NCBI GenBank assembly: GCA_036504215.1
Contig: DASXVO010000002.1
Coordinates: 62,001 to 126,000, forward strand
From: Vicinamibacterales bacterium
GTDB lineage: Bacteria; Acidobacteriota; Vicinamibacteria; Vicinamibacterales; Fen-181
DNA: 64,000 nt
Direction: 5' to 3'
Position numbers and translations under genes: made by a program. The notes beneath the pieces were generated by a model. The model searched no databases. It saw only the letters and a list, made by a program, of their open reading frames with translations, and was not told the DNA's origin. Shown here one piece after another: positions 33,302-45,294 of the stretch (its first letter is position 1; each line of letters starts with the position of its first letter).

Positions 33302-34291
33302 CTACGTTCTCATCCAGCCCGCCGTGTTGTGGAAGTTGACGACGGCCTGCCCCGGGCGGTTGATCGTGTCGCAGGCGTCCCGCTGGGCGTCCGTCAGCAT
33401 CATGGTCAGCACCGGCAGCACGTCCTCGAGCTGCGCCCGTGTTCGCGGGCCGACGATGGGTGAGGTGATGCCGGGTTGGTCCTTGCACCAGAGCAGGGCG
33501 AGTTGGCCCGGCGAGAGTCCGTGCTCGCGCGCCAGGGCCACGAATTGCCCGCCAGCGGCGATCCCCGCCGGCGTGACCCGCCGGGAGTAGATGCTGTTCG
33601 GCTGCCTGGCCGCGCGCGAGTCGGGCGGCAGCGCTCCGGCTGCCGGGTACCGTCCGGCGAGCACGCCCTGCGCGATCGGAGCCCAGGGAAGGATCGCCAG
33701 GTTGTAACGGATGGCGAGCGGCAGCAATTCGTTCTCGATTCGCCGATCGAGCAGGTTGTACGGTGGCTGCTCGCTCATGTAGCGCGCGAACCCGTGACGC
33801 TCGCTCATGGCGAGGGCTTCCATCACCATCCAGGCCGGATGCGTCGAGCATCCGATGTAGCGCACCTTGCCCGCCCGAACCAAATCGGTCAGTGCGCCCA
33901 GCGTCTCCTCGATCGGAATCTCCGGGCTGGGTCGATGGATCTGATAGAGGTCGATGTAGTCGGTGCCGAGCCGCCGAAGTGACGCGTCGCACGCCTCCAG
34001 GATGTGGTGGCGCGAATTGCCTGCGTCGTTTGGGCCGTCACCCGTCCGGCCGTGGACCTTCGTGGCGAGGATCACCTGATGTCGTCGCCCCGCGAGCGTC
34101 CTGCCGACCACTTCTTCGGATCGCCCGCCGTGATAGGTATCCGCCGTATCGATCACGTTGATGCCGGCGCCGAGCGCCGCGTCCACGATCCGTCCCGCCT
34201 CCTCGTCTGGCGTCGGCCCGCCGAAGTTCAAGGTGCCCAGAGTGAGCGGCGACACACGCACGCCAGTTCGGCCGAGAAGGCGGTATTCCAT
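33302..34291 (-). CDS. Aldo/keto reductase
   Basis: A 329-residue TIM-barrel oxidoreductase. It has the N-terminal [15 protein letters not shown], the catalytic Asp and Tyr in [11 protein letters not shown], the Lys in ILATKVHG, and the active-site His in [22 protein letters not shown] is the NADPH-phosphate region. This is the YajO/PdxI-like branch. ATG 34291 is preferred over 34309 because it abuts the conserved start EYRLLGRTG. It is a single gene with no evident partner. Confidence 0.93.
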
Positions 34292-34354
34292 GGCGAGATT
34301 ATGGCCCACACGGACAGCGGGAAGGAAATAGCGAGGAGGAAAGGATGAAAGAGA

Positions 34355-36115
34355 TCACTGCTGGACGGTCACGCGGAACGTGACGGAGCGGTTGTAGGTC
34401 CTGTCGTCATCGCTCATCTCGGAGCGGAGCGGCTGACTGGCGCCGACCCCCTGCGTCGCCGGCCTGAGGCCGCGCAGTCCCCTGGCCTCCAGCGCCGATT
34501 GCACCCGTTCGGCCCGCGCCAGGGAGAGCCGCACGTTGATCCCTTCCGAGCCTGTTCCGTCCGTGTGTCCGATCACGTCCACCCTGACGGCGATTCCAGC
34601 CTGGAGCACAACGGCGGCAAGTTCCTGGAGTACCGAGACCGCCTGGTCGAGCGTCGCGCCCTCGCCGGGCAGCAGTTCGGTTGTCCCGACGCCGAAGCGA
34701 AGGACGATCGTCTCCACGCGGCGTTGGACCGTGCCGATGGCGGCGAGCCCCTCGTCCCCCAGTCGACTGGCGTCGAATCCGAGCACGCCGGGAATCGTCA
34801 CGGCGCGCTCGCCGGCCGCCGCGATCCAGCGATGAGGTGCCGACCCGCGCGCAGACAGCATGCCGCCGGACAGGGCAAGGGTCACCGATGCCGGCGCCTG
34901 CAAAACCGCGCGTGCCCGCGCCTGGACAATCGAAGGCTCTTGTGACACGTACCGTTCCCAACGGCTCGAGACGCGGGTTGCGTCAAGACCGCAGTCGGCG
35001 AGAAGCGCGACCGGATCGGCCGCGTACGGATCCACGAACCCCGCGATCGACGACCGCCGCACTCCTCCGTGCTCGCTGACCACGAGGACACCAGGCTCTC
35101 GGTCCAGCCGGGCGAGGTAGGCGTCCCAGCGCCGGCCCGCGCGCAGCGAGATCGCGAGCCAGATGGCGACGAGCAGCAGGACGACCGCCCCCACCACCGC
35201 GGGCGCGAGCCAGTAGCTTCGTTCGCCCCTGCCGGCGACCTGCAGTTGCAGGCAGCCCTCGAGGTGGTGGCGGGCGTCCTCGAACGGTGTGGCGTCTCCG
35301 GAGAACGCCTCGAAGGCCTGGCCGAGCTCGAGTTCGATCACCTCGAGGGCATCGCGCAGCACGCCGCGGAGCCCCGTGGGCGGAGTGCCCCGGACGACCG
35401 CAGCCACGTAGGCGTGCTCCGCCTGCTCGACCCACACCGTCAGGTCGCCGACCCGCATCGTGTCGACGGCCTGCTCGGCGTCGACCGAGAACGAATCGCG
35501 GACGAAGTCCTGGATCGCGGTCAGCATCCCGGACACGAGGTCTGCGTCCAGGCCGAACCCTGTGTCGGCGGCGACGTGCTGGAGCAGCAGCCCGGTCTTG
35601 CGGTGGACGAGGAAGACCTGCTCGACGCGAAACACGAGGCTGTGGCTGAGCACCACCTCGGCGAATGGCCTGCCGGTCCGCCACGCCTGGAACCGCCAAC
35701 GCAGCGCCCGGACCGAGACGCTGTGCTGGAGCACCTGGTTGAACGAGTCCACGACGGTGCGAAGCGCCTCGGCGATGGCGCGACGGATAGCCGGCCCCAT
35801 GGCCGGCGACAGCGCCGCGGCAACCTGCCTGCGGTTCTTCTTGATGGACGCGGCGAGGGCTTCGTCGAGGACGGCCGACAACGCAAGGCCGAGACGATTG
35901 TCGCGGCGGGCGGCCCGGGCGAGGGATTCGGGCAGGACAGCGCTCAGCTCTGCCGCGCGAACGTCGGGGTCGCCGAGGCGATGCTCGAGTCGGGCCAGCC
36001 TGTCCCGCTCAACGGTGAGGACCAGCTGCCGCAACTGCTCGAGCTCGTCCGACCCGACCGGCGGGCTCGCGCCGCCGGCCGCGGAGCCGGTGTCCGCGCC
36101 GGGCGACTCGCTCAC
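34355..36115 (-). CDS. Membrane protein with longin/roadblock-like region and C-terminal OmpA peptidoglycan-binding domain
   Basis: A 586-residue protein. The N-terminal 130 residues are helical and charged. Residues about 160-275 contain VEQVFLVHRKTGLLLQHV, DADLVSGMLTAIQDFVRDSF and WVEQAEHAYVAAVVRG, a longin/roadblock-like pattern of the kind that binds small GTPases. One membrane helix follows (about 306-328). The C-terminal part ends in an OmpA domain with VIGHTDGTGSEGINVRLSLARAERV. There is no signal peptide, so the N-terminal part should face the cytoplasm and the OmpA domain the periplasmic peptidoglycan. It is last in a four-gene unit with a Ras-like GTPase. The longin/roadblock reading is inference from pattern. 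Confidence 0.85.
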   Translation of the reverse strand: MSESPGADTGSAAGGASPPVGSDELEQLRQLVLTVERDRLARLEHRLGDPDVRAAELSAVLPESLARAARRDNRLGLALSAVLDEALAASIKKNRRQVAAALSPAMGPAIRRAIAEALRTVVDSFNQVLQHSVSVRALRWRFQAWRTGRPFAEVVLSHSLVFRVEQVFLVHRKTGLLLQHVAADTGFGLDADLVSGMLTAIQDFVRDSFSVDAEQAVDTMRVGDLTVWVEQAEHAYVAAVVRGTPPTGLRGVLRDALEVIELELGQAFEAFSGDATPFEDARHHLEGCLQLQVAGRGERSYWLAPAVVGAVVLLLVAIWLAISLRAGRRWDAYLARLDREPGVLVVSEHGGVRRSSIAGFVDPYAADPVALLADCGLDATRVSSRWERYVSQEPSIVQARARAVLQAPASVTLALSGGMLSARGSAPHRWIAAAGERAVTIPGVLGFDASRLGDEGLAAIGTVQRRVETIVLRFGVGTTELLPGEGATLDQAVSVLQELAAVVLQAGIAVRVDVIGHTDGTGSEGINVRLSLARAERVQSALEARGLRGLRPATQGVGASQPLRSEMSDDDRTYNRSVTFRVTVQQ

Positions 36116-36729
36116 GGCTTGGCACCGTCCTCGATCGGCAGCGACAGCTCGTCGGCCAGGCGCATCGCCACCTCGTGAAGGATGCCGGCCACGGCCTTGC
36201 GGTCGGCCTTTTCGTCACGGAGTTCCTCGACCGCTCGACGCAGGGCGGCGGTCAGGTCGTCCGCCCGGCGCTGGATCTCGTTGTCGAGTCGGTTGGCCTG
36301 AGCGAGCAGTTGCTGGCGCAGGTCGCGTTCCGCCGCGGTGGAGTGCTCGCCGAATTGCACCAGGTCCTTGCGCAGGCTCTTCGCGGCCTCGTCGATCTTC
36401 GCCAGGGACTCCCCGTCGCCGTTCTCGCGCTCCTTGACCTCGGCGCGCAGCCGCTCGTTGAGCGAATCGATCTCGTTGCGGGCGTAGGCTTCGAGGTTCG
36501 CGAGGCCGCGCTTGAGTTCCTCGCGAAGCTCGGTCACCCGCTTGGGCATCTCTTCTTCCAGCCTCGCGAGCCGTTTGTCCATGCCCCGGCTCTGGGCCCC
36601 GAAGAGGATCTCTCTGACCTGATCGAGGTTGCCGCTGCCGAGCACCTCGGTGCCGCCTTCGCGCGCCATGGCCGGAGGTCGCTCGGTCGTTCCCTTGTCG
36701 CCTGCCGTCTTGTTCTGCGTCTTGTCCAT
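36112..36729 (-). CDS. Coiled-coil cytoplasmic protein
   Basis: A 205-residue protein, almost wholly charged helix with heptad-like spacing from about 48 to 190 (KRLARLEEEMPKRV, ERDLRQQLLAQANRL). No signal peptide, membrane segment or catalytic motif is visible. Its stop overlaps the start of the OmpA-domain gene by 4 bases (ATGA), so the two products are probably partners. A role as linker or scaffold between the GTPase and the membrane protein is inference. Confidence 0.85.
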   Translation of the reverse strand: MDKTQNKTAGDKGTTERPPAMAREGGTEVLGSGNLDQVREILFGAQSRGMDKRLARLEEEMPKRVTELREELKRGLANLEAYARNEIDSLNERLRAEVKERENGDGESLAKIDEAAKSLRKDLVQFGEHSTAAERDLRQQLLAQANRLDNEIQRRADDLTAALRRAVEELRDEKADRKAVAGILHEVAMRLADELSLPIEDGAKP

Positions 36730-36784
36730 CGAGGCCGCTCCTCTCTCGCCGTTGCCGGAGCCGGGAACACGTGCGACGCCACCA

Positions 36785-37609
36785 TCACGGGGCTGTAAAC
36801 CGGCCCACGACCATCGTGACGTTGTCGCTGGCGCCGCGCTCGAGCGTCAGATCGAGGAGGCGCCGGCACGACTCCTCCGCCCTGCCGCCCGCGCCGAGGA
36901 TGTGCGTGATGTCGCTATCGGGCACGTGCTTGGTCAGGCCATCGGTGCACAGCAGGAGGACGTCATCGGCCTGTAGATCGACCAGCCCGACCGACGGCTC
37001 GATCTCGCTGCCGACCGCGCTCGTCAGGACGTCTTTCAGCATGTGCCGCCGCCCCGATTCCGGCGCCCGATCCTCCTTGATGACCCCCTGGTCCACGAGC
37101 TGCTCGTAGGCGGTCTGGTCGCGGGTGATCTGGCGGAGTTGCCCGTCGCGGAGATAGTAGGCGCGGCTGTCCCCGACATGGACCACGTAAGCGCGCGGCC
37201 ACATCAGCGCCGCCATCGTCAGCGTCGTGGCCGGATTGCGCCCTTCGGAAGCGAGCCGCTGGCGGACCTGCTGGTGCGCTCGCTCGACGGCTGCCTGGAG
37301 CTGGGCGAGGAATTCGTGCTCCGTGTCCACGTCGAAGTCGTAGCAGCAGCCGACCGTCTCGCCGATGTGCTTCGCGAGCGCCTCCACCGCCGTGCCGCTG
37401 GCCTGCTTCCCCCCGGCGGCGCCGCCCACACCGTCGGCGACGACGAGCAGGTGCGCAGACGAGTCGTGAAGACTCGCGAACGCTCTCAGATCCTCGAGGC
37501 TCGTCTGTTGCACGCGCATCGATCGGTGCAGCGACGCGACGAAGAACTGGTCTTCGTTCTGCGCACGCACCTTCCCCCGGTGCGTGGTTCCGAAGATGTC
37601 GATGATCAC
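36785..37609 (-). CDS. PP2C-type serine/threonine protein phosphatase
   Basis: A 274-residue phosphatase. All PP2C metal-site motifs are present: RAQNEDQF (16-23), VVADGVGGAAGG, VHVGDSRAYYL, LLCTDGLTKH and GASDNVTMVV. It is soluble. The start lies 4 bases after the stop of the Ras-like GTPase gene and the end is 55 bases before the coiled-coil gene. No Ser/Thr kinase is in the window, so the phospho-substrate is unknown; the coiled-coil protein or the membrane protein are candidates by position. Confidence 0.94.
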   Translation of the reverse strand: MIIDIFGTTHRGKVRAQNEDQFFVASLHRSMRVQQTSLEDLRAFASLHDSSAHLLVVADGVGGAAGGKQASGTAVEALAKHIGETVGCCYDFDVDTEHEFLAQLQAAVERAHQQVRQRLASEGRNPATTLTMAALMWPRAYVVHVGDSRAYYLRDGQLRQITRDQTAYEQLVDQGVIKEDRAPESGRRHMLKDVLTSAVGSEIEPSVGLVDLQADDVLLLCTDGLTKHVPDSDITHILGAGGRAEESCRRLLDLTLERGASDNVTMVVGRFTAP

Positions 37610-37613
37610 CCAG

Positions 37614-38111
37614 TCAACCTCTCAGCATCTGGCCAGCGAGCCAGAGAAACGCCTCGTTGACCCCGACACCTGTTTTGGCGCTCGTCTTCAGGACGAGGCG
37701 CCGCTCGCCGTAGAAAGCGGAGAGTTCGCCGTCGCCGATCTGCCACTGGGCCTCCAGGTCGGCCTTGTTGACGGCGATCACCACGGGCACGGCGCCCACG
37801 CACTGCTCGACCAGCGTTTGCAGGCTCGACTGCTCCGCCAGCGTCTCCCGCCGCGTCCCGTCGACGACGAAGAAGATCCCCGAGGAACCGCGCAGATAGC
37901 TGGCCTGGACGTTCTGGAACTTGTCCTGTCCGGCGAGATCCCAGAGCAGGAGGTTCACCTGGTCGCCGCCGACCGCGACCTCCTTGCGATCGACCTTCAC
38001 ACCGACGGTCGAGTGGTACTTCTCCGAGAATTTCGAGTGGACGAACTGCTGCACGAGGCTGGTCTTGCCGGTTCCGAAGACGCCGACCATGCAGACCTTC
38101 TTCTGGATCAC
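37614..38111 (-). CDS. Ras-like small GTPase (Rab/Rup-type, prokaryotic)
   Basis: A 165-residue small GTPase. The P-loop is GVFGTGKTSL (10-19), a switch I threonine lies in YHSTVGVKV, switch II is WDLAGQDKF (DxxGQ), the base-recognition motif is NKADL, and SAK is in KTSAKTGVGV. This is a full Ras-superfamily set, with an Ala before GQ as in Ras. The GTG start at 38111 is chosen because GGAGAGG lies just upstream and the P-loop then falls at residue 10; an ATG 36 bases earlier is possible. It heads the cassette with PP2C, coiled-coil and OmpA/longin-like proteins. No separate exchange factor or MglB is visible. Confidence 0.92.
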   Translation of the reverse strand: MIQKKVCMVGVFGTGKTSLVQQFVHSKFSEKYHSTVGVKVDRKEVAVGGDQVNLLLWDLAGQDKFQNVQASYLRGSSGIFFVVDGTRRETLAEQSSLQTLVEQCVGAVPVVIAVNKADLEAQWQIGDGELSAFYGERRLVLKTSAKTGVGVNEAFLWLAGQMLRG

Positions 38112-39719: not shown

Positions 39720-40475
39720 ATGGCCACTAGCGCATTGGCGCGCACCGACCTCGAAGCCATCCTGCGGGCGCGGAAATTGGACCGGACGGTCGCACGACCG
39801 GATGCCACACCCGACAGCCAGCAAATACTGCCGACAGGCATGGCCGCGCTCGACGCCCGCCTCGGCGGAGGGTTGCCTCGCGGGCAAGTGTCGGAACTGA
39901 CTGGTGTCCGTTCCTCGGGGCGCACCAGCCTGATGTCCGCCATGCTGGCGGCGGCCACACACCGCAGTGAACTGGTGGCACTGGTCGATCCGCTCGACAT
40001 GTTCGATCCCGAATCGGCGGCGTCGTGCGGCGTGCTCCTCGATCGGGTGCTCTGGCTCAGAGGAGACGCCTCCAGCCGCGGCCCTGAACGGACACGGGCG
40101 CAGCCGGTGTACGAGCGCGCGCTCGACCGCGGCGTGAAGGCGCTCAATCTCGTGCTGCAGGCCGGAGGCTTCGACCTCGTCGTCTTCGACATGGCGGACG
40201 TTCCGGCGGACGCCATCCGTCGCCTGCCGTTCACGACGTGGTTCCGCCTGCAGCGCGTCGTCGAAGGCAGCCGCACCGCCTGTCTGGTCATCGCCCCGGT
40301 GCCGACGACGAGAAGTGCGGATGGCGTCAGCATCCAGCTTTCGCATGGTGAGCGTCGCCGCGACGCCACCCGCGAGTGGAACGAGCGGCTGTTCCTCGGG
40401 TTCGAACTTTCCGCCCGCATCGTCCGCGCCTGCGAACCGGAAGAGGCGGCGGTCGATCTGCGATTCAGGGCATAG
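39720..40475 (+). CDS. imuA: ImuA, RecA-like mutasome accessory protein
   Basis: A 251-residue RecA-fold protein. LPTGMAALDARLGGGLPRGQVSEL (in part) is the usual ImuA/SulA-like entry to the fold, and the P-loop position reads GVRSSGRTSL (about 62-71), with Arg where Walker A has Lys. VFDMADV is the Walker B-like strand. GAGGA precedes the ATG. ImuA works with ImuB and DnaE2 (ImuC) in error-prone lesion bypass after DNA damage. It is first in a three-gene operon behind a likely damage-inducible promoter. Confidence 0.88.
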   Translation: MATSALARTDLEAILRARKLDRTVARPDATPDSQQILPTGMAALDARLGGGLPRGQVSELTGVRSSGRTSLMSAMLAAATHRSELVALVDPLDMFDPESAASCGVLLDRVLWLRGDASSRGPERTRAQPVYERALDRGVKALNLVLQAGGFDLVVFDMADVPADAIRRLPFTTWFRLQRVVEGSRTACLVIAPVPTTRSADGVSIQLSHGERRRDATREWNERLFLGFELSARIVRACEPEEAAVDLRFRA

Positions 40476-40505
40476 CAGCCCATAGACGGGCTGATAGAGG
40501 GCGTG

Positions 40506-41927
40506 ATGTTTGCGTGCCTGTTCCTGCCGCCATTCTGCGCGAGCCTGCTCGAACCCACGCCGGATCCCGGCGTGGTCGAAATGATTGCCCGCGAGTTCTC
40601 GCCGCGCGTCGAGGTGCATCGCCCGGGTCTCGTCACGCTCGATATCGACGGCCTGGGTCGCCTGCTCGGTGCGCCCGCGCAGATAGGCCAGGAACTGCGC
40701 CGGACGGCGGCTGACCGCGCCAGTCACCCGCACATCGCGATTGCCGCCACGCGCACGGCAGCCCTGCTGCTGGCGCTCGGCCGTGCCGGCGTCGCGGTCA
40801 TTCCCGCGGGCGGCGAGCGGCGCGTCCTGGCGCCGCTGCCGCTCGGCGTGTTGCGGCAGTATCCACTGGAGCGTGGTACGCAGGAGCGGCTCGCCACCGT
40901 CCTCGATCTCCTGCGGAGATGGGGATTGAAGACGCTGGGCGAACTGGCGTCGTTGCCCGGGCCGGCGTTGTCCGAGCGGCTGGGGCAGGGCGGCATGATC
41001 TGGCAGCGCCTGGCGCGTGGCGAGGAACTCGAACCGCTCGTCGCGAGCGAGCCGGAGGCGCCGATCGAGGAGACGGTGGAACTCGAGTGGCCGGTCGAAG
41101 GTCTCGAGCCGTTGGCCTTCGTGCTCGCGCGGCTGTTCGAGCCGCTTTGCGAGCGCCTGGCCGTGCTCGACCAGGCGGCCGTTGTCCTGCACGCGACCTT
41201 CCGTCTGGCGTCGCGCGAGACGACGGCGCGCGTGCTGCAACTTCCGGCGCCGATGCGCGATCCGAAGGTGCTGCGGACGCTGATCCTGCTGCACCTGGAA
41301 GCGCAGCCGCTCGGGAGCGGCGTGGACCGCGTGACGATACGGGTCGAGACGGCTCCCGCGCGCGTCACGCAGTTCTCGCTGCTGTCGCGCGCGCTCCCGT
41401 TTCCCGAGAAGATGGCCACGCTGATCGCGCGGCTCTCGGCGTTGCTCGGCGACTCGCACGTCGGCTCTGCCGTCGTCGTCGATTCTCATCGCCCCGGTGC
41501 GTTTGCGATGACACCGTTCTCGGTGGCGGGATTGCCGAGACCATCGTCCGCGTGGCCGCCCGCGGTGTCGGGGCGGTCTGACGCCGAGGTGCCGCGCGTG
41601 GCGCTGCGCCGGTTCCGCCTGCCGGTGGCGGCGCGTGTGCAGGTGCACGAAGGCCGGCCCGTGCGCGTCTCGTCGGACCGGCGAGGTCTCGAAGGCGGGG
41701 TGGTGGACGAGGCCACCGGTCCGTGGCGGACCTCGGGCGAGTGGTGGAAGGTGGGTGCGGGCCGAGTCGAAGGAGCCTGCCCTGAGCGAGGCCATGGAGA
41801 CGGTGCGGGACGAGTCGAAGGGTGGAATCGTGACGAGTGGGACGTGGCGCTCGGCGATGGAGCCGTCTACCGCATCTACCGCGATCGCGTGCGCGACCGC
41901 TGGTTCATCGACGGGGCGATCGACTAG
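40506..41927 (+). CDS. imuB: ImuB, Y-family-polymerase-like mutasome scaffold
   Basis: A 473-residue protein starting MFACLFLPP as ImuB proteins do; an in-frame GTG directly before the ATG is possible. The Y-family catalytic Asp of the first motif is missing, so it is not an active polymerase. VTQFSLLSR (about 302-310) could be a beta-clamp-binding motif. The C-terminus has EWDVALGDGAVYRIYRD, conserved in ImuB. Residues about 417-439 are an in-frame repeat-derived insert (GAGRVEG twice). ImuB bridges clamp, ImuA and DnaE2. The next gene starts 10 bases after the stop. Confidence 0.92.
   Translation: MFACLFLPPFCASLLEPTPDPGVVEMIAREFSPRVEVHRPGLVTLDIDGLGRLLGAPAQIGQELRRTAADRASHPHIAIAATRTAALLLALGRAGVAVIPAGGERRVLAPLPLGVLRQYPLERGTQERLATVLDLLRRWGLKTLGELASLPGPALSERLGQGGMIWQRLARGEELEPLVASEPEAPIEETVELEWPVEGLEPLAFVLARLFEPLCERLAVLDQAAVVLHATFRLASRETTARVLQLPAPMRDPKVLRTLILLHLEAQPLGSGVDRVTIRVETAPARVTQFSLLSRALPFPEKMATLIARLSALLGDSHVGSAVVVDSHRPGAFAMTPFSVAGLPRPSSAWPPAVSGRSDAEVPRVALRRFRLPVAARVQVHEGRPVRVSSDRRGLEGGVVDEATGPWRTSGEWWKVGAGRVEGACPERGHGDGAGRVEGWNRDEWDVALGDGAVYRIYRDRVRDRWFIDGAID
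41754..41822 (+). repeat. In-frame repeat insertion within imuB
   Basis: A 21-bp sequence, GGTGCGGGCCGAGTCGAAGG plus one base, at 41754-41774 recurs with 19 of 21 bases identical at 41802-41822, 48 bases (16 codons) later. Between them lies GGAGCCTGCCCTGAGCGAGG, the core of a dispersed GTCGAAGG...CCTGAGCGAG element that I know from intergenic regions of many bacteria. The frame is kept and the segment adds GAGRVEG...GAGRVEG to the protein in a non-conserved linker. Confidence 0.7.
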
Positions 41928-41937
41928 GGGTTGGGGA

Positions 41938-44900
41938 GTGTACATCGAACTGCATTGCCGCTCCGCGTTCAGCTTTCTCGAGGCCGCCTCGCTGCCCGAG
42001 GCGCTCGTCGACCGGGCGGCGGAGCTTGGCTATCCCGCGCTGGCGCTCGTCGACCGCGACGGCGTCTACGGCGCGCCGCGCTTTCACAAGGCCGCGGCGG
42101 CCGCCGGCATCCGGCCGATCACTGGGGCGGAACTGACCATCAGCAGCGATCAGTTGTCAGGTTCCCACCATCCACTCGCCACCAGCTTCCGTCTGCCCGT
42201 TCTCGTCGAATCCGCCGCCGGCTACCAGAACCTCTGCCGCCTGGTAACGCGGATGAAGCTGCGATCGCCGAAAGGGGAGGGGGCGCTGTCGCTCGAAGAG
42301 TTCGAGGGGCAGACGGCCGGCCTGGTGGCGCTCGTCGGACGTGAGGCGCTCTGCGGCGGGCGACATGGCGTCGGCGGCCTGGTCGATCGCCTCGTGCGCC
42401 TGTTCGGCCGGTCGCAGGTGTACATCGAGATGCAGCGGCATTTGATCAGGGACGAGGAGGCCGACAACCAGGCGTTGCTCGCGCTGGCTTCCGCGTTTCA
42501 CGTGCCGGTGGTCGCCAGCAACGGCGTCCGGTTCGCGACGCCCGCGGATCGCCCGCTCCACGACGTCCTTACCTGCATCCGCCACAAGACGACGCTGGCG
42601 GCGGCGGGGCGGAAGCTGGCGTTCAACGCCGAACGATTCCTGAAGCCGCGCGAACAGATGGCCGCGCTGTTCCACGACGTGCCGGACGCGATGAAGAACA
42701 CCGAGGCGCTGGCCGATCGCCTCCGCTACACCATGGCGGACCTCGGGTACCGCTTCCCGGAATATCCCGTGCCGGTCGGCGAGACGATGGCGTCGTTCCT
42801 GCGGAAGATGACGGAAGTCGGCGCGCGGGAGCGGTACCGGCCGTATCACGACAAGGCGCGCGCGCAGATCGCCCGCGAGCTGGCGCTCATCGAGAAGCTG
42901 AACCTCGCCGGCTACTTCCTGATTGTCTGGGACATCGTGAACTTCTGCCGGCAGCAGGGGATTCTCGTCCAGGGCCGGGGCTCGGCCGCCAACAGCGCTG
43001 TCTGTTACAGTCTCGGCATCACGGCTGTCGATCCGGTCGGGATGGATCTGCTGTTCGAGCGGTTCCTCTCGGAGGAGCGCGGCGAGTGGCCGGACATCGA
43101 CCTCGATCTCCCGAGCGGCGACCGCCGCGAGCGCGTCATCCAGCACGTCTACGAGAAGTACGGCGAGCACGGTGCGGCGATGACGGCCAACGTCATCACG
43201 TACCGCGGGCGGAGTGCCGCACGCGAGGTGGGGAAGGCCATCGGCATCGAACCGGCGCAGGTCGACCAGCTCGCAAAGGTGATGCACAATTTCGAGTTCA
43301 AGGACGCAGGCGAGACGCTCGCGAAGCATCTCGACGCGATTGGCCTCGATGCCGGCGAACCGCGCCTGCGGCTCTTCTCCGAACTCTGGCAGGCCGTCCA
43401 GGATCTGCCGCGCCACCTGGGCCAGCACTCCGGCGGCATGGTGATCTGCCAGGGGCGTCTCGACAGCGTCGTGCCGCTCGAGAACGCCAGCATGCCCGGG
43501 CGAGTGGTCGTTCAGTGGGACAAAGACGACTGCGCCGACATGGGGATCGTGAAGATCGATCTCCTCGGTCTCGGCATGATGGCGGCCCTGCAGGATTCCT
43601 TCGAGCTCGTCAACAGTCGTCGTCCCCACGCCACGGCACCGCTGGGCCTCTGGAACCTGCCGCAGGACGACCCGGAGGTGTACCGCATGCTGCAGGCCGC
43701 GGACACGATGGGCGTGTTCCAGGTCGAGTCGCGCGCGCAGATGGCGACGTTGCCCCGCCTCAAGCCGGCACGCTTCTACGACATCGTCGTCGAGGTGGCG
43801 CTCATCAGGCCGGGGCCGATCGTCGGGCAGATGGTGCATCCCTATCTGAACCGGCGTGCGGGGCGCGAGCCGGTCGAATATCCGCACCCGTCGCTCGAAC
43901 CGATCCTCGCGCGCACGCTGGGCGTGCCGCTGTTCCAGGAGCAGTTGCTGCGCATCGCGATGGTGGCGGCCGGATTCAGTGGCGGCCAGGCCGAGGAACT
44001 GCGCCGCGCGCTCGGGTTCAAGCGGTCCGAGCAGCGGATGAAGAAGATCGGGGTGCAGCTTCGCGAGGGGATGGCACGGCAGGGGATTACCGGCAAGCCG
44101 GCCGAGGACATCATCTTGTCGATTTCGTCGTTCGCGCTGTACGGCTTTCCCGAGTCGCACTCGGCCAGCTTCGCGCTCCTCGTCTATGCGAGCACGTACC
44201 TCAAGGCGCATTTCCCCTCGGCGTTCTACGCCGCGCTGCTCAACAACCAGCCGATGGGATTCTACCATCCCGCCACGCTGGTGAAGGATGCGCAGCGGCA
44301 CGGCGTGCGGTTCGCGCCCGTGGATGTGCAGCAGTCCGACTGGTCCTGCACGGTCGAGGTCGATGGCGCCGTACGGCTGGGGCTGAGGTACGTCAGTGGA
44401 TTGAGAGAACACGTGGGACGCGCCATCGCGGGCACCGAGGTCCGCGGTCACCACGTCCCGAGTGGCACGGGCGTCCCGCATCCGGACAGGCGAGACGCCT
44501 GTCCCACTCCGATCCCGAGTGGCACGGGCGTCCCGCCCGTGGATCTGCGGTGTCCCAAGTGCCGCTGCGACGATCAGTCGATGCTGGAGGTGACGCCGCA
44601 GGGGCGACACCTCACGGTGTTCTGCAACAACTGCGCGCACGACTGGATGTTGGAGGTGCCGCGGTTCCAGTCGGTGGACGATCTGGTCGCGCGGATCGGC
44701 ATCAGCCGCGAGGAACTGTCGGTGCTGGCCGAAATCGGCGCGCTTCACGCGTTGGGCCACAACCGACGCGAGGCGCTGTGGCAGGTCGAACGGGCGGTTC
44801 GGCCGGCGGGAGAGCTATTCGAGGGAGACGTCGCCCGGTCGGATGACGACCGCGAGGGAACGTGTCCTCTGCCCGGCATGTCGGCGATCGAGCGCGTGGT

Positions 44901-45294
44901 GGCCGACTATGAGGGGACGGGCCTCACGATTGGTCCGCATCCGATGGCGATGCGCCGCGAGGAGATGAGCTTGCGTGGCGCGCTGCGCGCGGCCGACCTG
45001 CCGCGTCAGCGGCACGGCCGGCGCGTGCGCGTGGCTGGTGCCGTCATCACGCGTCAACGTCCGGGCACGGCCAAGGGGTTCGTATTCCTCACGATCGAGG
45101 ATGAAACGGGCATCGCCAACATCATCGTGCGGCCCGACCTGTTTGCCGAGCAGCGGATGACTGTCATCCACGAGCCGTTCCTGCTGGTGGAAGGCACGCT
45201 CCAGAACCAGGAAGGGGTCACCTCGATCCGCGCCGAGCGGATGGAGGGCCTGGGCGGCCCACGGGTGGAGGTGGAGGCGCGGGACTTCTACTAG
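41938..45294 (+). CDS. dnaE2: DnaE2 (ImuC) error-prone DNA polymerase III alpha subunit
   Basis: An 1118-residue C-family polymerase. The GTG start has AGGGG 7 bases upstream and opens VYIELHCRSAFSFLEAAS, the N-terminal PHP domain. The palm has GRGSAANSAVCY and the catalytic acidic residues in DIDLDLPSGDRRERV. FPESHSASFALLVYAS and the C-terminal OB-fold (FVFLTIEDETGIANII) are as expected. Residues about 840-868 derive from an inserted repeat, and 872-899 form an unexpected zinc-ribbon-like segment (CPKC...CNNC) between the fingers/duplex-binding parts, making it about 80 residues longer there than usual. It performs translesion synthesis with ImuA and ImuB. Confidence 0.95.
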   Translation: MYIELHCRSAFSFLEAASLPEALVDRAAELGYPALALVDRDGVYGAPRFHKAAAAAGIRPITGAELTISSDQLSGSHHPLATSFRLPVLVESAAGYQNLCRLVTRMKLRSPKGEGALSLEEFEGQTAGLVALVGREALCGGRHGVGGLVDRLVRLFGRSQVYIEMQRHLIRDEEADNQALLALASAFHVPVVASNGVRFATPADRPLHDVLTCIRHKTTLAAAGRKLAFNAERFLKPREQMAALFHDVPDAMKNTEALADRLRYTMADLGYRFPEYPVPVGETMASFLRKMTEVGARERYRPYHDKARAQIARELALIEKLNLAGYFLIVWDIVNFCRQQGILVQGRGSAANSAVCYSLGITAVDPVGMDLLFERFLSEERGEWPDIDLDLPSGDRRERVIQHVYEKYGEHGAAMTANVITYRGRSAAREVGKAIGIEPAQVDQLAKVMHNFEFKDAGETLAKHLDAIGLDAGEPRLRLFSELWQAVQDLPRHLGQHSGGMVICQGRLDSVVPLENASMPGRVVVQWDKDDCADMGIVKIDLLGLGMMAALQDSFELVNSRRPHATAPLGLWNLPQDDPEVYRMLQAADTMGVFQVESRAQMATLPRLKPARFYDIVVEVALIRPGPIVGQMVHPYLNRRAGREPVEYPHPSLEPILARTLGVPLFQEQLLRIAMVAAGFSGGQAEELRRALGFKRSEQRMKKIGVQLREGMARQGITGKPAEDIILSISSFALYGFPESHSASFALLVYASTYLKAHFPSAFYAALLNNQPMGFYHPATLVKDAQRHGVRFAPVDVQQSDWSCTVEVDGAVRLGLRYVSGLREHVGRAIAGTEVRGHHVPSGTGVPHPDRRDACPTPIPSGTGVPPVDLRCPKCRCDDQSMLEVTPQGRHLTVFCNNCAHDWMLEVPRFQSVDDLVARIGISREELSVLAEIGALHALGHNRREALWQVERAVRPAGELFEGDVARSDDDREGTCPLPGMSAIERVVADYEGTGLTIGPHPMAMRREEMSLRGALRAADLPRQRHGRRVRVAGAVITRQRPGTAKGFVFLTIEDETGIANIIVRPDLFAEQRMTVIHEPFLLVEGTLQNQEGVTSIRAERMEGLGGPRVEVEARDFY
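44457..44542. repeat. GTGVPPV/RDACPT-type dispersed repeat inserted in frame in dnaE2
   Basis: CCCGAGTGGCACGGGCGTCC occurs at 44457-44476 and again at 44514-44533. Between them GAGACGCCTGTCCCACTC (44491-44508) is the inverted half. The translated phrases SGTGVPHP, RRDACPT and SGTGVPPV are the familiar peptide form of a palindromic repeat found in Planctomycetes, Verrucomicrobia and Acidobacteria. The reading frame through dnaE2 remains open. Confidence 0.8.

Follow-up and report, generated by a model that had tools for sequence, protein, structure and literature searches.

According to Wuichet and Sogaard-Andersen (2014, PMC4316618), the genes for Group 1 Rup small GTPases have three conserved neighbours. 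The first encodes a coiled-coil protein, predicted to be cytoplasmic; the second, a protein whose unknown domain often precedes a transmembrane (TM) helix and an OmpA domain; and the third, a signalling output that has an invariant glutamine in its N-terminal region. These GTPases lack the glutamine of the G3 motif, which was suggested to be provided in trans by the output, and they are very similar to Rab/Ran/Ras/Rho, for which a transfer was proposed (PMC4316618). Here, we analysed 64,000 nucleotides (nt) of DNA from a Vicinamibacterales bacterium (GCA_036504215.1, contig DASXVO010000002.1, positions 62,001 to 126,000 of the forward strand; hereafter the window) containing a cassette of four intact open reading frames (ORFs), all on the minus strand, for a Rup GTPase, a PP2C phosphatase, a coiled-coil protein and a protein in which a predicted longin domain is joined through a TM helix to an OmpA domain (longin-OmpA protein). 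We interpret this cassette as a variant of Group 1 Rup signalling in which the output is a PP2C, and the former 'unknown domain' of its OmpA protein is predicted to adopt a longin fold. We do not file it as a typical member of the group because the latter is described as 'typically' having GGDEF/EAL or histidine kinase outputs (PMC4316618).

The preliminary description of this DNA knew no named system with such a composition, but the core of the cassette corresponds gene for gene to the Group 1 Rup system published in 2014. As in that group, a coiled-coil gene and an unknown domain-TM-OmpA gene adjoin, a fourth signalling gene is present, no roadblock (MglB) neighbour occurs, and the GTPase, with an Asp in G3, is of the non-MglA type. 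Unlike in the group, the fourth gene encodes a PP2C with neither the output N-terminal domain nor the invariant Gln, no such domain being found nearby, the GTPase carries the G3 Gln (DLAGQ) that the group lacks, and the gene order is permuted. This order is GTPase-PP2C-coiled coil-OmpA protein, so that PP2C adjoins both the GTPase and the coiled coil; the intergenic gaps initially given were reproduced from the window ORFs (4 bases for GTPase/PP2C, 55 for PP2C/coiled coil and -4 for coiled coil/OmpA protein). The cassette is no chance grouping. The N-terminal region of the OmpA protein has at least 518 relatives in many phyla (one scan), and a neighbourhood survey of the best 80 of these, found in Acidobacteriota, Desulfobacterota, Nitrospirota, Cyanobacteriota, Chloroflexota, Gemmatimonadota and others, placed a coiled coil beside 78 and a GTPase beside 75; of the five without a GTPase, four lie at contig ends. 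The core trio is thus kept in nearly all of these 80 relatives and all four genes recur together in Gemmatimonadota, which supports the preliminary description on this point. Relatives most commonly show the order coiled coil-OmpA protein-GTPase-output, with histidine kinase, GGDEF or sigma-54 activator domains in the output and the invariant Gln in 77 of 78 outputs. One of them (L050) has the order GTPase-output-coiled coil-OmpA, which is that of the window with the window PP2C at the output position.

The phosphatase itself is complete, as had been claimed. The metal-binding acidic/catalytic residues are intact in the alignment (RAQNED, ADGVGG, CTDG and SDN), and NCBIfam Stp1_PP2C_phos matches at 1.1e-50, which is below that model's cut-off. 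Only one of the best 80 relatives has an adjoining PP2C (L124, Gemmatimonadota). Across 298 Gemmatimonadota genomes, the six best matches to the window PP2C (50-57% identity) all lie within Rup cassettes, and a search with the GTPase revealed Rup GTPases in 18 genomes, 10 of which have a PP2C beside the GTPase or the cassette. The PP2C-Rup linkage hence amounts to eleven loci in two phyla, the window included. The Gemmatimonadota order is coiled coil-OmpA-GTPase-PP2C and, apart from L169, the PP2C lies directly after the GTPase with no output gene detected alongside. When the linkage was sought in 162 genomes from the window's own order, none of the 11 best PP2C loci examined had Rup genes. 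In a core tree inferred from the GTPase, the OmpA N-terminal region and the coiled coil, with PP2C left out, the PP2C-linked loci form one clade (SH-aLRT 95 with 94 rows; 100/96 with 47 rows), in which the window is sister to Gemmatimonadota. These loci are a real subfamily, with only the four genes in common and no shared fifth gene found. In the PP2C tree, all linked PP2Cs fall into one clade (99/93), the window PP2C branching first and five unlinked PP2Cs being nested; this topology fits an early coupling to Rup followed by loss. Three of the five genomes with an unlinked nested PP2C (G598, G588 and G597) have no longin-OmpA gene, as if the phosphatase had outlived the system. A ~25-residue N-terminal insertion was considered as a Rup-specific feature of PP2C and rejected, being also present in PP2Cs without Rup linkage.

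What role the phosphatase plays is best judged from its position. The preliminary description saw in it a device that tunes the switch by dephosphorylation, which is possible, yet PP2C occupies the slot of the output and we prefer the output reading because relatives carry a signalling output at that position. An in-circuit regulator that resets the switch by removing phosphate from one of the core proteins (coiled coil, OmpA protein or GTPase) deserves tentative consideration, as the window PP2C touches the genes of two of these candidate targets and as L169 has an upstream PP2C alongside a separate histidine kinase output. However, in the other PP2C-linked loci no second gene that could serve as output was detected beside the PP2C that follows the GTPase, and the correspondence with L050 places the window PP2C exactly where an output stands. 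We regard as quite improbable that PP2C is an operon bystander with no functional connection to the GTPase: related PP2Cs do exist without nearby Rup genes, and PP2C genes are common in Gemmatimonadota, but an adjacency maintained in two phyla within a single clade of the core tree, in loci that share no other gene and contain all the closest PP2Cs, speaks against this.

The second pillar of our interpretation is the cytoplasmic region of the OmpA protein, for which a longin/roadblock reading had been advanced by pattern. Pfam gave no match in residues 1-470 and no sequence match to the longin family, and Robl_LC7 (roadblock) was unmatched in all four cassette proteins. The reading is upheld by two AF2 models, one of the full-length protein from 17 sequences and one of residues 131-294 from 90 sequences, and by three structure comparisons. 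Both the full-length model and that of residues 131-294 (pLDDT 84, pTM 0.76) show the order b-b-a-b-b-b-a-a. The best matches to solved structures (VIA-align Z) are Sec22b (13.5), VAMP7 (13.5), Ykt6 (13.1) and Fuzzy in CPLANE (13.0), then a Lokiarchaeal longin (11.7), MglB (11.4), Mon1-Ccz1 (11.2) and the TRAPP subunit 2j3t_D (11.1), while the top Foldseek match is another TRAPP subunit, 2j3t_C (Bet5, 3.5e-5). These values of ∼11-13.5 are well above background, since models without relatives typically reach Z 7-8; sequence identity to longins is ∼10% in structure alignments of ∼120 residues. Both MglB and the exchange complexes of eukaryotes use this type of fold to bind small GTPases (PMC10933270; PMC3521125). 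The remainder of the protein agrees with the proposed layout, in which a membrane protein joins the GTPase to the cell wall: one strong hydrophobic segment is present (residues about 303-324, hydropathy maximum of 2.85 at residue 306, model helix 305-339), and the OmpA domain resembles TagL/OmpA/Pal (Z 14-16) with Asp519, Asn527 and Arg534 conserved among relatives. Pfam matches of the coiled-coil protein are generic coiled-coil only. A common ancestry of its motif and the N-terminal motif of the OmpA protein was not supported (hhalign probability 2.7%).

Could this likeness reflect only a general PAS/GAF/roadblock-type fold in a domain that serves, for instance, ligand sensing or dimerisation instead? 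The low sequence identity would allow it, and longins are part of a wide superfamily (PMC4917890). We nevertheless find it unlikely, given that Z values of ∼13 are reached over ∼120 residues, that longins and roadblocks are the best matches and that the constant companion of the domain is a Rab-like GTPase, the kind of protein with which longin folds usually pair. A polarity switch of the MglA/MglB type, as in Myxococcus, is disfavoured and seems highly improbable. In both systems, a small GTPase is paired with a protein from the roadblock/longin superfamily, these two folds are related, and MglB is found among the structure matches; but the window GTPase is Rab-like rather than MglA-like, with Rab4/Rab14/Rab2 as closest solved structures, and its partner is nearer to longins than to MglB, membrane-bound and wall-anchored. 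In addition, Robl_LC7 is unmatched in the whole genome, which thus offers no MglB-type partner.

Taken as a whole, the locus is probably best explained as a PP2C-output Rup system in which a longin-OmpA wall anchor sets the state of the GTPase, which in turn switches PP2C. The OmpA protein would span the inner membrane, grip peptidoglycan outside and display its longin domain in the cytoplasm. Probably as a dimer that the coiled-coil protein supports, this domain may form a platform that captures the Rup GTPase and, acting either as exchange factor or as hydrolysis activator, determines its nucleotide state in response to the condition of the wall. The GTPase, in turn, would switch the output, here PP2C acting on Ser/Thr-phosphorylated proteins, for which the 16 Ser/Thr kinases found above cut-off in the same genome could supply possible substrates. 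We infer the binding and regulation of the GTPase by the longin domain by analogy with MglB, TRAPP, Mon1-Ccz1 and Fuzzy-Inturned; also putative are the protein contacts, the wall signal, the direction in which control runs and the part of PP2C as effector. Several points weigh against this explanation. The GTPase-longin contact is drawn from analogy, a shared fold alone shows no function, and the workings of the Group 1 Rup system are themselves predicted only. Moreover, the gene order of the window is unlike that of Gemmatimonadota, L169 (Gemmatimonadota) carries a histidine kinase output as well, so PP2C need not stand in for the output, and five related PP2Cs (L174, L176, L177, L178 and L179) have no Rup gene alongside, which means that this type of PP2C is able to work without the Rup system.

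The Rup GTPase has the full motif set that had been announced, with G4 NKAD and G5 SAK in addition to G1 and G3 (Table 1). Its start is a GTG at 38111 in an ORF open to 38147, and nearly all relatives begin with MIQKK, which matches that start; a C-terminal lipidation cysteine is absent. The GTGKT form of G1 is typical of most of the PP2C-linked clade. Like most of the family, the window GTPase has Phe at the Ras Gly12 position, which, from what is generally known of Ras, argues against a Ras-type arginine-finger mechanism. At G3, DLAGQ was found in only 2 of 98 GTPases compared, the window GTPase being one of them; the last residue is E/D in nearly all relatives, K/R in the other PP2C-linked loci and Q in the window. 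The shift from E/D to K/R/Q is real but confined to one clade, and one event at most is shown. A rule by which the G3 Gln returns once the output Gln is lost was not supported: the window fits, but R/K stands at this position in the other PP2C-linked GTPases, and in L045 both Glns are present. Elsewhere in the family, four Rup loci of Deltaproteobacterial type (L054, L060, L117 and L127) have sigma-54 activator-like outputs, and in three of them G3 has L or M with no E/D and the GTPase gene is divergent from the coiled coil and OmpA genes. Another Gemmatimonadota Rup group (L195-L202; G3 DLQGE/D) often has a small receiver-like gene next, replacing the usual output. A full Rup cassette outside the gammaproteobacterial group lies on a contig titled as a Klebsiella pneumoniae metagenome-assembled genome (L061), possibly a mislabelled record.

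Table 1. Coordinates of the cassette and its parts in the window (aa, amino acids)
Feature	Position	Strand	Basis
Rup-family (Ras/Rab-like) small GTPase, 165 aa	37614..38111	-	Pfam Ras 5.9e-32
G1/P-loop GVFGTGKT	38061..38084	-	motif comparison with relatives
G3 motif DLAGQ, catalytic-type Gln	37926..37940	-	comparison with relatives
Stp1-like PP2C Ser/Thr phosphatase, 274 aa	36785..37609	-	Pfam PP2C_2 1.5e-15
Cytoplasmic coiled-coil protein of the Rup system, 205 aa	36112..36729	-	conserved motif LDxVRxILFGxQxR
Longin-TM-OmpA protein, 586 aa	34355..36115	-	Pfam, conservation, AF2 model
Predicted cytoplasmic longin domain, residues about 160-292 (b-b-a-b-b-b-a-a)	35240..35638	-	AF2 models and structure comparison
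Single TM helix, residues about 305-327	35135..35203	-	hydropathy and AF2 model
Periplasmic OmpA/Pal peptidoglycan-binding domain, residues 474-576	34388..34696	-	Pfam OmpA 2.6e-11

In two congeners (G001 and G002), the genes for an MFS transporter and an aldo/keto reductase, which flank the cassette in the window, lie ∼100 bases apart and the cassette is missing; the aldo/keto reductase gene beside the cassette site (33302-34309) is inverted in the window relative to both. The cassette is thus an accessory four-gene unit, either gained in the window genome or lost in the congeners. Mis-binning was rejected, the flanking genes being syntenic with those of the congeners. The same genome encodes on another contig a second Rup GTPase (G000:C40:41676-45226, L039:5677-9227), followed by a PAS-histidine kinase-receiver output and with no coiled coil or OmpA gene of its own. 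Since there is only one longin-OmpA gene in the genome, this second GTPase may share the longin-OmpA protein of the window. One longin-OmpA gene versus two or three Rup GTPases is also found in G289, G242, G567, G619, G605 and G636, which suggests a single wall-anchored hub serving several GTPase-output pairs. Further along the window, the plus strand carries an imuA/imuB/dnaE2-like set (39720-45294) with Pfam matches to RecA and DNA pol III alpha, imuB being assigned by position only with no Pfam match; two exact 24-nt direct repeats, 57 bases apart and in frame (44456-44536), lie within the dnaE2-like ORF and have the look of a repeat element.

Among other known systems, the actinobacterial conservons (CvnA-D) similarly couple a small GTPase to a membrane signalling protein, but they comprise an MglA-type GTPase, an MglB-type CvnB and a histidine kinase-like CvnA, and neither an OmpA anchor nor a PP2C is among the four core proteins (PMC13343842). 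The longin-type platforms that serve as guanine nucleotide exchange factors for eukaryotic Rabs (TRAPP, Mon1-Ccz1 and Fuzzy-Inturned) likewise combine a longin fold with a Rab-type GTPase, but the system of the window is bacterial, its longin domain is part of a transmembrane protein with an OmpA wall anchor and its exchange activity is putative. The longin assignment, PP2C as output gene and one hub with several GTPases appear to be new. No report of a bacterial longin-Rup pairing or longin assignment was found in the papers searched; subscription papers and preprints were outside this search, and an earlier notice is possible.

The pairing of Rab-like GTPases with longins is thought to be typical of eukaryotes and Asgard archaea. 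The longin assignment bears on the origin of this pairing because Group 1 Rup GTPases resemble Rab/Ran/Ras/Rho and their transfer has been proposed (PMC4316618). It might even be, although this is speculative and rather doubtful, that the combination of a Rab-like GTPase and a longin platform is ancient and widespread in bacteria, and that eukaryotes received this wall-tied pairing along with the GTPase. More directly, the assignment gives an entry to a widespread Group 1 Rup family whose 'unknown domain' offered none, and makes this family testable. Finally, the PP2C version presents the Rup system as a module, with one sensor-switch core and exchangeable outputs that would now include protein dephosphorylation.

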